Source: Motilimonas eburnea
GTDB taxonomy: Bacteria > Pseudomonadota > Gammaproteobacteria > Enterobacterales > CBDFNC01
Direction of reading: 5' to 3'
DNA: 64,000 nt
Assembly: GCF_021295345.1 (NCBI RefSeq)
Contig: NZ_JAIMJB010000007.1
Location: 1-64,000, forward strand
The notes under the pieces were generated by a model. The model was not told the origin of the DNA. It saw only the letters and a program-made list of their open reading frames with translations, and ran no database searches. Made by a program: the position numbers and the translations under genes. Positions 51,880 through 56,645 of this stretch are shown in pieces; the first letter of the stretch is position 1, and each line of letters opens with the position of its first letter.

Positions 51880-53982
51880 TTATTGTCCGACAGAGTTAAC
51901 GATTCTAATTTGCTTGTCTTCGGGCACTTCTTGATAACTGAGTACCTGCAAGCTAGGAATAGTGTTCTTAACAAACTTAGCCAAGGTTGTTCGTAATACC
52001 CCCGACGTTAGCAAAACAGCGGGTTGGCCCGCAAGCTCTTGCTGTTGTGAGGCTTCAAATAATGCGCTCTGGATCCGCTCTGCTAGTCCCGGCTCGATAC
52101 CAGCCCCTTCACTTCCCCCTGCTTGGATCGAGTTATGCAAAATTTGCTCCAACTCCGGAGACAGTGTAATAACGGGTATTTCTGATTCCGCTCCGACAAT
52201 ATTTTGACTGATCATGCGTTTTAATGCGATACGACACGCCGCCGTTAATACTTCTGCATCTTGGCTCTTCACACCATAATCAGACAAGGTTTGCACTATC
52301 GTGCGTATATCTCTGATCGGCACCCCTTCGTTTAATAGGCTTTGTAATACCTTAACCACCACCCCGAGAGGTAAAATGTCCGGCACCAACCCTTCTACTA
52401 GTTTAGGATGACTTTTCGCTAATAAGTCGAGAAGATTTTGAACTTCTTCATGTCCGAGCAACTGAGCGGCATGATTAGTCAGTAATTGACTAAGGTGGGT
52501 CGCCACCACCGTCGCCGCATCAACCACGGTATATCCCATGGCTTGGGCGTGTTCACGTTGACTGGGTGAAATCCACAAGGCGTCTAATTGGAAAGCAGGC
52601 TCTATGGTGGGGATCCCTTCTACCGTACCAAACACTTGACCTGGGTTAATGGCCATCTCTTTATCATGGAACACTTCAGCTTGACCACTGGTCACCCCCA
52701 TCAAAGAAATACTGTAATAACTCGGCGGTAAGTCCAAGTTATCACGAATATGAACCGGCGGAACCAGAAAGCCTAATTCTTGCGATAGCTTTTTACGAAC
52801 CCCTTTGATCCGCTCTAGTAGTTCACCACCTTGGCTTTTATCAACCAGAGGGATCAGTCGGTATCCCACTTCTAACCCTATGGTGTCAACGGGTTGAACA
52901 TCGTCCCAACCCAGCTCTTTGGTTTGTGCTGCCGGATTACTATTCGCCACATTTTTTTCAGATTCGACTAACGCCGAGGCCGCCGCCGCTTTTTGCTTTT
53001 TCATTAGCCAGTAAGTGCCACCCGCTGCGGCTAAACCTAAAGATAAAAATGCAAAGTGTGGCATACCCGGTACCAGCCCCATCACAATGAGTATGCCCGA
53101 GGTGATCATTAAGGCTTTCGGGTTACTGAACATTTGTCCCATCACCTGCTCACCCATGTCTTCTGAGCGGTTTTCTCGAGTCACGGTGATCGCCGCAGCA
53201 ATTGATAATAACAGTGAAGGAATTTGCGCGACCAAGCCATCGCCAATGGTTAACAAGGTATAAATTTCAGCGGCTTGACCAAAACTCAAACCATGTTGCG
53301 CCATGCCAATAATAAAACCGCCGATGATATTGATAAATAAGATCAATATGCCAGCGATGGCATCACCTTTAACGAATTTGCTGGCACCGTCCATCGAGCC
53401 ATAGAAATCGGCTTCGCGGGTCACCTCTTCGCGCCTTATTCTCGCCTGCTCTTGATCTATCATGCCCGCGTTTAAGTCGGCATCAATGGCCATTTGCTTA
53501 CCCGGCATCGCATCAAGGGTAAAGCGGGCGCTCACTTCAGAAATACGCCCCGCGCCCTTGGTCACCACCACAAAGTTAATGATCATTAAAATCAAAAACA
53601 CGATGAGACCAACCGCATAGTTGCCACCAATGACCACCGAGCCAAAAGCTGCAATCACGTTACCCGCGGCATCCCCACCTTGATGGCCCTCAAGTAACAC
53701 GACTCGCGTTGACGCCACATTCAGGGCCAAACGCAGTAAAGTCGCAATCAATAACACAGCAGGAAAAGCCGCGAAATCGAGGGGACGTTTAGTGTAAATA
53801 GCCACCAACAACACGATCAATGCCAAAGCAATATTGAATGAAAACAAAATATCGAGAAGGAAAGCGGGCATGGGTAAGACAACCATGCCAAGGGTCGCCA
53901 GTACCATGACTGGCGCGCCCACCCCTTTAATCAGTTTATCGCGCTGTTGCCAGAAACCGGCTAAATTTGACTTTAAATTCAT
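51880..53982 (-). CDS. flhA: Flagellar export gate protein FlhA
   Basis: FlhA is the largest part of the type III export gate and couples proton flow to export. The 700-aa protein has eight membrane helices (about 20-330) with the FHIPEP-family segment RFTLDAMPGKQMAIDADLN, and a cytoplasmic domain (about 360-700) that binds chaperone-substrate complexes. It has its own sigma-54 promoter (54020-54035). Confidence 0.97.
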   Translation of the reverse strand: MNLKSNLAGFWQQRDKLIKGVGAPVMVLATLGMVVLPMPAFLLDILFSFNIALALIVLLVAIYTKRPLDFAAFPAVLLIATLLRLALNVASTRVVLLEGHQGGDAAGNVIAAFGSVVIGGNYAVGLIVFLILMIINFVVVTKGAGRISEVSARFTLDAMPGKQMAIDADLNAGMIDQEQARIRREEVTREADFYGSMDGASKFVKGDAIAGILILFINIIGGFIIGMAQHGLSFGQAAEIYTLLTIGDGLVAQIPSLLLSIAAAITVTRENRSEDMGEQVMGQMFSNPKALMITSGILIVMGLVPGMPHFAFLSLGLAAAGGTYWLMKKQKAAAASALVESEKNVANSNPAAQTKELGWDDVQPVDTIGLEVGYRLIPLVDKSQGGELLERIKGVRKKLSQELGFLVPPVHIRDNLDLPPSYYSISLMGVTSGQAEVFHDKEMAINPGQVFGTVEGIPTIEPAFQLDALWISPSQREHAQAMGYTVVDAATVVATHLSQLLTNHAAQLLGHEEVQNLLDLLAKSHPKLVEGLVPDILPLGVVVKVLQSLLNEGVPIRDIRTIVQTLSDYGVKSQDAEVLTAACRIALKRMISQNIVGAESEIPVITLSPELEQILHNSIQAGGSEGAGIEPGLAERIQSALFEASQQQELAGQPAVLLTSGVLRTTLAKFVKNTIPSLQVLSYQEVPEDKQIRIVNSVGQ

Positions 53983-54019
53983 TCACATAGTTCGACAAAA
54001 AAATGACGTTTTAACCCTA

Positions 54020-54035
54020 TGCAATAACCGAGCCT
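54020..54035 (-). promoter_or_regulatory. Sigma-54 promoter for flhA
   Basis: The minus strand reads AGGCTCGGTTATTGCA, matching TGGCACG-N4-TTGCA at all but two positions, with the invariant GG and GC correctly spaced. The -12 GC lies about 40 nt upstream of the flhA ATG, leaving a leader of roughly 27 nt. Expected activator: a FlrC/FleQ-type protein. Confidence 0.75.
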
Positions 54036-54132
54036 AATGCAACATGCCACGGGTTAAAGTTTCCCGAGTAATACTGAAACTTAGTTAACGGTCAAATAAA
54101 TCAACCACAGTCTCCTCACTCAAGGATAAGAC

Positions 54133-54440
54133 TAGGGCCTGTTGACCTTTCGTGGTTAATTTTTGTTCGAGAGGGAGACACCCTGTCTAAAAGCGTTTTG
54201 AGCAAGGCGAGCAGTGTGTAGCTTAGCATTCTAAGTAAATACTGCTCAACGACGCGTAGAATGCTTACGCCCGAAGGGCTTTAGCCGAATCCAAAGGACA
54301 GCGTTTGTTGGTCATTTCTACTACGTTAGCGCCTTTTCGCGTAGTTCACTATGCCACAAAGATGCTGCCCACAACGATTGTTTTGTATAAATACCCAACA
54401 AATCGCTGCAAAAACAAGCTCCAAAGATCAACAGGCCCTA
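54133..54440 (-). mobile_element. MITE-like element, copy 1 (flhB-flhA gap)
   Basis: This is a 308-bp noncoding element bounded by TA on both sides. Terminal inverted repeats are GGGCCTGTTGACCTTT at the left and, inverted, GGGCCTGTTGATCTTT at the right. It is about 80 percent or more similar by eye to copy 2 over most of its length, with an extra insertion near 54172-54190 and another near 54340. Inside are paired arms GAGCAGT/ACTGCTC around CTTAG-CATT-CTAAG. It has no open frame. Its right end supplies the TAG stop of flhB. TA duplication and termini suggest mobilisation by an IS630/Tc1-type transposase. Confidence 0.85.
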
Positions 54441-55568
54441 ATATTTAAAGCCCTCTGGCATATCAAATTCTTTAGGCAGTGCGGTTGGGCGTTTTCCACG
54501 GCCTTTACGGTATTGCTCTAATTGAAAAAGGTAGGCAAGAATTTGCGCTACCGCGACAAAAAGCTCATGAGGAATTTCTTGTTCGAGTTCAGTTGTATGA
54601 TAGATGGCGCGGCAAAGCTGCGGTGAGCTCATCACTGGCACTTCATATTCACGTGCTATTTCACGAATTTTCAAGGCGATTTGATCAACGCCTTTCGCCA
54701 CCACTCGAGGGGCACCGCCGCTGGCCGCATCGTATTTTAATGCCACCGAAAAATGCGTCGGGTTAGTGACGACCACGTCTGCCGTTGGCACCTCACCCAT
54801 CATTCGGCGTTGTGCGGCTTCCATCTGTAAGCGGCGGATCCGCCCTTTGACTTCTGGCTTACCTTCTTGATCCTTATGCTCGTCTTTCACTTCCTGCTTG
54901 GTCATTTTCAGTTGTTCTTTGTGATGCCATAACTGATAGGGCACATCCACCACCACGATCACCAAAAGCGACAAGCATAAAATTAAAAACATCCAAAGCA
55001 GCATATCCAATGCCGCTTCAACACTTGAGCCTAATGGCGTTGAGCTCAACACCAAGATATCGGCAAAGCTCACATGCAAGATCCCCCACACGCCAAAGCC
55101 TATCACCGTCACTTTAAGGATCGATTTGAGTAATTCAATCCAACCTTGACTACCAAACATCCGCTTGAACCCAGCAAGTGGGCTCATTTTGCTCAACTTG
55201 GGCAACATCACTTCGGTACTAAAGTTCATACCGCCGATCATGATGGCCCCAGCAACACCGGCAATGAACAAAGCGACTAAAATAGCCAGTGTCGGCAAAA
55301 TCATTTCACCAATGCCATTGGCAAACACCACTTTCATCTGACTGGGATCAAACACCACATCACGCTCAAACGTGAAGGCTTTTTTCATCATGGTCACAAA
55401 AGCATGACCGAGATAATCGCCTAACATCATCAAGGCAAACGCCGCCATGATCAAGATAGCAGCCGTGCCCAACTCCTTAGAGCGGACCACTTGCCCTTTA
55501 TTTCGGGCATCACTGAGTTTTTTCCCCGTGGGGTCTTCGGTTTTTTCTTGACCGTCAGCTTCTGCCAT
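54438..55568 (-). CDS. flhB: Flagellar export switch protein FlhB
   Basis: FlhB changes export specificity from hook to filament. The 376-aa protein has four membrane helices (about 30-215) and the autocleaved cytoplasmic domain with VVVTNPTHFSVALKYD. The tail ends KEFDMPEGFKY and its TAG stop is formed by the first bases of the adjacent MITE-like element. Length is normal, so function is probably kept. AGGAG lies 8 nt before the ATG. It is separated from fliR by the second element copy. Confidence 0.97.
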   Translation of the reverse strand: MAEADGQEKTEDPTGKKLSDARNKGQVVRSKELGTAAILIMAAFALMMLGDYLGHAFVTMMKKAFTFERDVVFDPSQMKVVFANGIGEMILPTLAILVALFIAGVAGAIMIGGMNFSTEVMLPKLSKMSPLAGFKRMFGSQGWIELLKSILKVTVIGFGVWGILHVSFADILVLSSTPLGSSVEAALDMLLWMFLILCLSLLVIVVVDVPYQLWHHKEQLKMTKQEVKDEHKDQEGKPEVKGRIRRLQMEAAQRRMMGEVPTADVVVTNPTHFSVALKYDAASGGAPRVVAKGVDQIALKIREIAREYEVPVMSSPQLCRAIYHTTELEQEIPHELFVAVAQILAYLFQLEQYRKGRGKRPTALPKEFDMPEGFKY

Positions 55569-55596
55569 CTTAATTCTCCTGGCTGCTGTAAGTGAT

Positions 55597-55862
55597 TAGG
55601 GCCTGTTGACCTTTCGTGGTTAATTTTTGTTCGAGATAAAAGCGTTTTGGGCAAGGCGAGCGGTGTGTAGCTTAGCATTCTAAGTAAATACCGCTCAACG
55701 ACGCGCAAAACGCTTTTAGCCGAATCCAAAGGACAGCGTTTGTTGGTCCTTTCTACTGCGTTAGCGCCTTTTCGCATAGGTAGCTATGCCACAAAGTCGC
55801 TGCCTTGTATAAATATCCAACAAATCGCTGCAAAAACAATCTCCAAAGGTCAACAGGCCCTA
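55597..55862 (-). mobile_element. MITE-like element, copy 2 (fliR-flhB gap)
   Basis: This is a 266-bp element bounded by TA, with termini GGGCCTGTTGACCTTT at both ends in inverted orientation. Internal pairings: a perfect 13-bp arm TAAAAGCGTTTTG (55637-55649) with CAAAACGCTTTTA (55706-55718), inside it GAGCGGT (55658-55664) with ACCGCTC (55690-55696), then CTTAG/CTAAG; a second domain CAGCGTTTGTTGG with CCAACAAATCGCTG, and GCATAG/CTATGC. It has no open frame. Its right end supplies the TAG stop of fliR, and flhB starts 28 bp beyond its left end. Confidence 0.88.
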
Positions 55863-56645
55863 GGGTCGGCAAGCCCCATTGAGTAGATCACACATCAATG
55901 CCGACCCGCGTTGCCAGTGGCCATCAAAATGTAATACAACATTGCCTATGGTCAGCCACAAAATAAACAGGCCAAACAACATACTAATTGAAAAGCCTAA
56001 GGTAAAAATATTCAATTGCGGCGCGGCCCTGGTCATGATACCGAAAGAGAAATTCACCAATAACATGGCCACAATGGAGGCCATGGACATGGCTAACGCT
56101 GCGGTGAACATCACCCCTAGCCACCCCGCTAGCTTTTCATATTGTAATGGGGCTAACCCATTCATTGAGATAGGTAACGTGGTAAAGCTTTCAACTATCA
56201 TATAGATCATCACTAAATGGCCATCCACAGCAAAAAACAGCAAGGTAACCAACATAAGATAAAACTGACCAACGACAGGTGAAGATTGCCCATTGAGGGG
56301 ATCCGCCATGGATGCAAAGCCTAAACTTGTTTGCATTGCAATAATCTGGCCAGCAATCACAAAGGTCTGCATCACAAACACAGAAACGGTCCCCACCGCT
56401 GTGCCTATGAGAATTTGTTGCAGCGCAACCAAAAAGCTTTGTCCAGAGAATAATGGGATCGGCGGCGGCTCAGGTAGTACAGGCACCACCATAAAAGTAA
56501 GGGCTAAGGACAGCAACAAACGGATACGCTTTGGCGTCGTTTTCGCACCAATGCCCGTCATCACCATCAACATGGCCGAGATCCGACATAAAGCCCAGAT
56601 ATAGCTCGAGAGCCAAGAGATAACGATATCAGCAGGAAAGCTCAT
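55860..56645 (-). CDS. fliR: Flagellar export gate protein FliR
   Basis: FliR is a gate subunit with FliP and FliQ. The 261-aa protein has about six hydrophobic segments, with WALCRISAMLMVMTGIGAKTTPKRIR at the N-terminus and QTSLGFASMADPLNG in the middle. The C-terminus reads NGACRP and then TAG, which is formed at the junction with the MITE-like element. Normal length is about 260 aa. Confidence 0.95.
   Translation of the reverse strand: MSFPADIVISWLSSYIWALCRISAMLMVMTGIGAKTTPKRIRLLLSLALTFMVVPVLPEPPPIPLFSGQSFLVALQQILIGTAVGTVSVFVMQTFVIAGQIIAMQTSLGFASMADPLNGQSSPVVGQFYLMLVTLLFFAVDGHLVMIYMIVESFTTLPISMNGLAPLQYEKLAGWLGVMFTAALAMSMASIVAMLLVNFSFGIMTRAAPQLNIFTLGFSISMLFGLFILWLTIGNVVLHFDGHWQRGSALMCDLLNGACRP

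Follow-up and report, generated by a model that had tools for sequence, protein, structure and literature searches.

The window, a stretch of 64,000 nucleotides from contig NZ_JAIMJB010000007.1 of Motilimonas eburnea (assembly GCF_021295345.1), contains three neighbouring flagellar genes on the reverse strand: fliR (55860..56645; PF01311, Bac_export_1, E 1.4e-64), flhB (54438..55568; PF01312, Bac_export_2, E 5e-130) and flhA (51880..53982; PF00771, FHIPEP). Two copies of a MITE, both annotated on the forward strand and both flanked by TA, are located between them: a 266-bp copy (55597..55862) between fliR and flhB, and a 308-bp copy (54133..54440) between flhB and flhA. They start with TAGGGCCTGTTGACCTTT and finish with a near-exact inverse of the same sequence. 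In 249 of 266 aligned columns (93.6%) the copies are identical, the longest exact block being 40 bp, and the 308-bp form contains additional short stretches relative to the shorter one. The predicted fold of the 308-bp copy, on which the shuffling test was run, beats 100 of 100 shuffles on each strand (z -6.5 and -5.4). A single open reading frame of at least 80 amino acids lies mostly within an element, a 108-aa frame continuing into the flhB region in another frame, and Rfam covariance models gave no match in positions 53900-56100 at E values up to 5. A preliminary description of this DNA had reported TA-flanked structured repeats of 308 and 266 bp, similarly orientated within the fliR-flhB-flhA run; its coordinates, its ends and, for the 308-bp copy, its fold agree with ours. 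The landing of both copies on stop codons and the family-wide structure are additions to it.

The TAG stop codons of fliR (55860..55862, reverse strand) and flhB (54438..54440, reverse strand) are both provided by element ends. On the coding strand, fliR finishes with ...CGA CCC TAG and flhB with ...TTT AAA TAT TAG, TAG being in either case the first bases of the element. In the congeners G001 and G002 the stop codons of fliR (TAA) and flhB (TAG) fall exactly on the insertion codons; in G003 they are TAG and TGA, respectively. All three congeners examined, whose FlhB proteins are 86, 86 and 76% identical to that of M. eburnea (G001, G002 and G003), are empty at both sites, so the insertions are most likely specific to the M. 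eburnea lineage. Judged from the reading frames, neither the FliR nor the FlhB protein is altered by the insertions, the upstream stop having been rebuilt as TAG. The 308-bp copy is 99% identical to C22:283847-284154, which suggests recent movement; the 266-bp copy is 97% identical to C8:59803-60068. An end-like motif with at most two mismatches is also present in the fli region of each congener, about 1.1 kb upstream of flhB (L091 near base 379; reverse complement of L092 near base 389), perhaps as a coding coincidence.

The M. eburnea genome contains at least 42 copies of the element family (40 places, one of them truncated, and two from a further search), a lower bound given that 40 were scored of 62 and 65 first-look candidates. 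With at most one mismatch, the end motifs occur there 41 times in forward and 42 times in reverse direction, and the reversed pattern not at all. The MITE-like identity suggested in the preliminary description is thus borne out by the many copies, the TA target, the empty sites in three of three congeners and, as described below, a congener IS5-family insertion sequence (IS) with matching ends. A lack of further copies and the same sequence at these places in all relatives, named there as signs of old intergenic sequence, were not what we found. A second pair of copies in the same orientation, less than 1 kb apart, is present at C22:84193-84473 and C22:85040-85305. Short forms of about 151 bp (L098:631-781 in C24 and L100:1353-1503 in C5, both in the same genome) keep both ends and the left hairpin, while most of the right hairpin is missing. 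At the junctions L046, L048, L051 and L055 (4 of 40 own-genome elements) the upstream frame enters the element and stops at a TGA starting 10 bases in. Of the 14 genomes scanned, a relative, G036, has the most end motifs (67 in forward and 72 in reverse direction); none of its transposase loci read had MITE ends around the transposase, and two had a short element nearby. Phage records contained no match for two element queries, viral contigs none for one element pattern, and a plasmid search with the GC-rich element of G335 gave no match.

A candidate source of transposase was found in the congener G002, where two 888-bp pairs of MITE end motifs are present among the matches listed for the 14 scanned genomes. 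These pairs are two copies of an IS with a 253-aa IS5-family transposase (NF033580, 267.1 bits, cut-off 110; PF13340 and PF01609 also above cut-off), 74.7% identical over its full length to the transposase of ISSod6 (IS5 family; NCBIfam transpos_IS5_3). Relatives of the G002 protein are encoded on plasmids of Vibrio alginolyticus (92% identity), Alteromonas mediterranea (84%), Shewanella oneidensis (ISSod6, 75%) and Pseudoalteromonas (66%). The ISSod6 copy read carries TAGGGTCTGTTGATCTTT at both ends together with TA, as does the MITE. Only about 31-36 bp per end are common to the MITE and the ISSod6-like IS: the left terminal region of the 266-bp copy (55597..55632, forward strand, about 36 bp) is 78% identical over 36 bp to the G002 IS and 81% over 32 bp to ISSod6, and the right one (55832..55862, forward strand) is 84% identical over 31 bp to one ISSod6 end. 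The MITE lacks the transposase gene and its interior is unrelated. In M. eburnea itself there were no matches to the G002 IS protein and five to PF01609, none with MITE ends at the loci read, in a draft assembly of 71 contigs from which an ISSod6-like IS may have been lost. A matching transposase in the same genome is not strictly required of MITEs. An IS630 parent, a candidate prompted by the TA target, was rejected: PF13358 gave no match in 7 of 10 genomes searched, M. eburnea included, and none of six PF13358 loci in the other three has MITE ends around the transposase, one having an ordinary short element nearby. On the plasmid of Pseudoalteromonas sp. HL-AS2 (L122, 1501-3599) the ISSod6-like transposase gene adjoins a gene for a TnpB-family RNA-guided nuclease.

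The target was characterized with 142 deduplicated elements, chosen as being 240-335 bp long, with at most three substitutions in their ends, an identifiable core on the right and no locus end closer than 100 bp. It reads Y-TA-R, with Y in 127 and R in 122 of them; TA is present at both ends of 132, and 80 are 266-269 bp long within the 240-335 bp searched. The elements lie between tandem (61), convergent (33) or divergent (13) genes, at edges (22) or inside frames (13), against a background of YTAR sites that are tandem in 2100 cases, convergent in 680, divergent in 593, at edges in 941 and inside frames in 12037. In the M. eburnea genome 10 of 40 elements give the upstream frame an in-frame TAG, a count that includes the fliR of the window and a short frame of 85 codons. 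Orientation relative to the upstream gene is 56 : 47 within 100 bp and 17 : 10 at stop codons.

The interior of the element has a conserved predicted fold, in which the termini are closed and a mini-hairpin stands centrally between a left and a right hairpin. In the 266-bp copy the left hairpin module occupies 55631..55723 (forward strand; columns 35-133 of alignment A3, with a counterpart in A5) and the right one, its inverted relative, 55736..55835 (forward strand; covariance model R1). Alignment A3 consists of 43 elements from Motilimonas, Vibrio, Colwellia, Cognaticolwellia, Thalassotalea, Psychromonas and other genomes; at least 109 stretches were found and 80 used, of which 58 were delimited and 22 not, and A3 took 35 of the 58 (259-272 bp) and 8 others. 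Double compensatory changes occur in 37 of its 79 predicted pairs. Pairing is possible in 96.9% of cells versus 89.1% in shuffled alignments and 37.6-44.0% in slid registers, over which the structure is favoured, since it was predicted from the alignment it is tested on, albeit with members found by sequence and not by structure. Double-change cells number 237 versus 57.5 in shuffles, a control that related sequences can exceed without any structure. Elements are carried also by loci of Shewanella (L132, L186) and Litorilituus (L189), with lengths outside the A3 choice.

A covariance model of the right hairpin, built from 19 of 37 stretches, matched 24 of 369 Gammaproteobacteria genomes with E values up to 0.001 and, in a partly shared set spanning the phylum, 36 of 398 genomes with E values up to 0.0001. 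These E values are rough; 14 of the 36 lie outside the class, as model matches only, and 13 of these belong to one family. Under strict filters the search scored 10 or 11 candidates per genome, which makes the copy numbers minimum figures. In six distant genomes the elements are 258-298 bp long as delimited, most of them about 270 bp and the shortest cut by a contig end. Their ends are, for example, TAGGGCCTGTTAACAC, AGGGCGTGTCGTCAT and GGGGCTGTTCTCA, and full-length copies from one genome share 89-100% identity in five of these genomes and 72-90% in the sixth, G405. Partial matches covered 63% of the query in Halomonas sp. PA16-9, 48% in Methylophaga frappieri and 26% in two Azotobacter chroococcum plasmids. 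In G180 resident IS5-family copies, whose transposases are recorded with internal stops or with split frames, start with YTA-GGGCGTGTTAACACTAAT, like the G180 element with TA-GGGCCTGTTAACACTA, and these ends differ from those of the Motilimonas pair (GTTGAYCTTT). The loci read in G379, G405 and G408 contained no IS with matching ends, and G267 and G335 gave no IS5_3 match. As two lineages have the same interior architecture but ends that match a different IS5-family IS in each, the interior has, from these sequences, the look of a conserved module with ends that go with the transposase resident in the genome.

Alignment A5 brings together 17 elements, nine of them from distant families, and has double changes in 60 of 83 pairs. 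The left hairpin and mini-hairpin, which were not used to find the distant members, are paired in 98.7% of cells versus 79.8% in shuffles and hold 105 double-change cells versus 33.0 (0 of 500 shuffles); further pair types number 39 versus 35.1 (10 of 500 shuffles). Invariant or nearly so in A5 are GGC and AAC of the left hairpin and, nearly, GTTATC and CTGCCTTG of the right one. The Motilimonas copy and eight of nine distant members have CAAGGC, where Vibrio and Colwellia members have mostly CGCGGC. In Motilimonas and several distant elements CAAGGC...AACG occurs in the left hairpin and, read as reverse complement, in the right one. Similarity between the halves goes beyond base-composition shuffles in G405 and G335 (0 of 500 each), the 266-bp copy of the window (1) and G180 (5), and not in G379 (46), Colwellia (393) and V. 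penaeicida (215); in G379 the same covariance model recognises both halves, as pairs in inverted orientation.

We propose that both copies at flhB are MITEs which an ISSod6-like transposase of the IS5 family has, very probably, mobilised in trans, with harmless stop-codon insertions and a conserved, non-IS interior fold serving the element and not motility. Such a transposase would act on the common ends TAGGGYCTGTTGAYCTTT and insert the element at TA within Y-TA-R; the accompanying duplication of TA is visible in the sequence, and the chemistry is presumed. Here the targets would have been the stop codons of fliR and flhB, still TAA and TAG in two congeners. Because the element starts with GGG directly after the duplicated TA, a TAG stop is rebuilt and both proteins are left intact, the copies forming untranslated spacers between the genes of the operon. 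An inverted pair of hairpins around the mini-hairpin makes up the interior, which does not derive from the IS and is kept by compensatory change across many genera. Its fold may bring the ends together as a cruciform or as single-stranded DNA, may make near-gene insertions tolerable, or both.

The position of both copies raises the question of whether stop codons are specifically preferred targets. After exclusion of the 10 elements without right-hand TA, 132 remain: 26 coincide with a flanking gene's stop codon, 93 are intergenic and 13 fall within a called frame, genes being called by a simple ORF heuristic. The 26 stop-codon landings compare with 12.75 expected for random TA in the same intergenic intervals (z 4.6), and YTAR sites alone give 23 of 92 versus 10.35 (z 5.2). 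Against TA sites within 20 bp downstream of a stop, however, the excess almost vanishes (27 observed versus 22.5 expected, p 0.12; 24 versus 20.0 for YTAR only, p 0.04, not significant at the 120-aa gene cut-off). The pattern therefore reflects mainly proximity to gene ends together with YTAR, TAG being rebuilt by the element, and a specific preference is improbable. Template switching inside inverted repeats, in turn, may account for part of the covariation: arms repeatedly copied onto each other could acquire double changes without selection, and the elements are indeed near-palindromic, with self-matches of about 60-69% over their length. Arm-to-arm correction should, however, also pair the unpaired loop columns 61-62, 103-104, 173-176, 212-213 and 216-218 of A5, and these are invariant or nearly so in 17 elements. 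That paired and unpaired columns of the whole interior are about equally conserved on average (0.72 and 0.70) qualifies this argument, and we regard template switching as the full source of the covariation as unlikely.

From gene order, both copies are plausibly part of the flagellar mRNA. A terminator or promoter function was considered and rejected, with 0 promoter-like sites versus 2.9 expected in 53900-56000 and only one of six terminator-like sites (2.5 expected) touching an element end. The folded element might still be useful to the host as RNA, tuning stability or processing of the fliR-flhB-flhA transcript; strong folds are predicted for both strands, and ERIC and Correia elements provide precedents in the passages available from a review (PMC10969869). 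Against this speak the empty sites in all three congeners, the presence of the same fold at many other loci and the lack of a clear orientation bias. Wobble counts in Watson-Crick-dominant interior pairs are likewise not markedly biased (G-T 55, A-C 33, in a structure predicted with G-U allowed). Both observations fit a strand-neutral structure serving the element and speak against RNA that acts from one fixed strand, while RNA that folds whichever way the element lies would be compatible with them; a benefit to the host transcript seems to us rather doubtful. Hardly credible is the flhB on/off switch put forward in the preliminary description, in which recombination between the direct copies would remove flhB and turn motility off. 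The copies do share orientation, 93.6% identity over aligned columns and a 40-bp exact block, and such a deletion is possible in principle, as a generic risk of direct repeats that another same-orientation pair, at C22:84193 and C22:85040, runs as well. A deletion would, however, be irreversible and therefore no switch, and no deleted form was seen in the M. eburnea genome or the three congeners without elements.

Bacterial MITEs are usually regarded as decayed, taxon-specific leftovers of one IS. Beyond the MITE reading of the two copies, it is quite conceivable, though short of probable, that the interior with its two inverted hairpins is a mobile module of its own, under selection and acting at the DNA level, either old or very widely transferred, whose ends are exchanged or co-evolve to match the resident IS5-family transposase. 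It would extend over the Gammaproteobacteria and, going by the matches of the model, into a second class of the phylum; the fold might, for example, let the ends of a short element synapse, or its conserved internal loops might bind a factor. If this is true, a gene-less element of about 270 bp with its fold, and not its ends, conserved across families would be a nonautonomous lineage in its own right, and the selected structure of such lineages would parasitise successive transposases. The YTAR target combined with the GGG start, rebuilding TAG, also provides a simple and harmless route into tight operons.

Our full-text literature search, with subscription papers mostly outside its reach, returned nothing on this element family, which is perhaps already in print, for example as SonMITE_1. 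That Shewanella oneidensis MITE, known to us by its name in the accessible part of a review (PMC10969869), may or may not be of the same family. ERIC is not known to share the sequence of the Motilimonas element or to have an assigned transposase. According to the passages available, ERIC, IRU and RU-1 are short mobile intergenic repeats of Enterobacteriaceae and Vibrionaceae with effects on mRNA, also at 3' ends of genes (PMC2229807, PMC10969869). The Motilimonas element is a short intergenic mobile repeat too, set apart by description: RU-1 is given a length of 127 bp (PMC2759123, as far as accessible), as against about 270 bp. The RUP elements of pneumococcus and the Correia elements are MITEs like ours, compared by description only; RUP has TA-containing targets and ends like those of IS630-Spn1, its partner being IS630 and not IS5, and the passages available describe for neither an interior conserved over many families (PMC2229807). 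By description, too, the Motilimonas copies at flhB may be likened to the Chunjie MITE of Geobacter, which a review passage presents as an element of 178-235 bp inserted in an operon.
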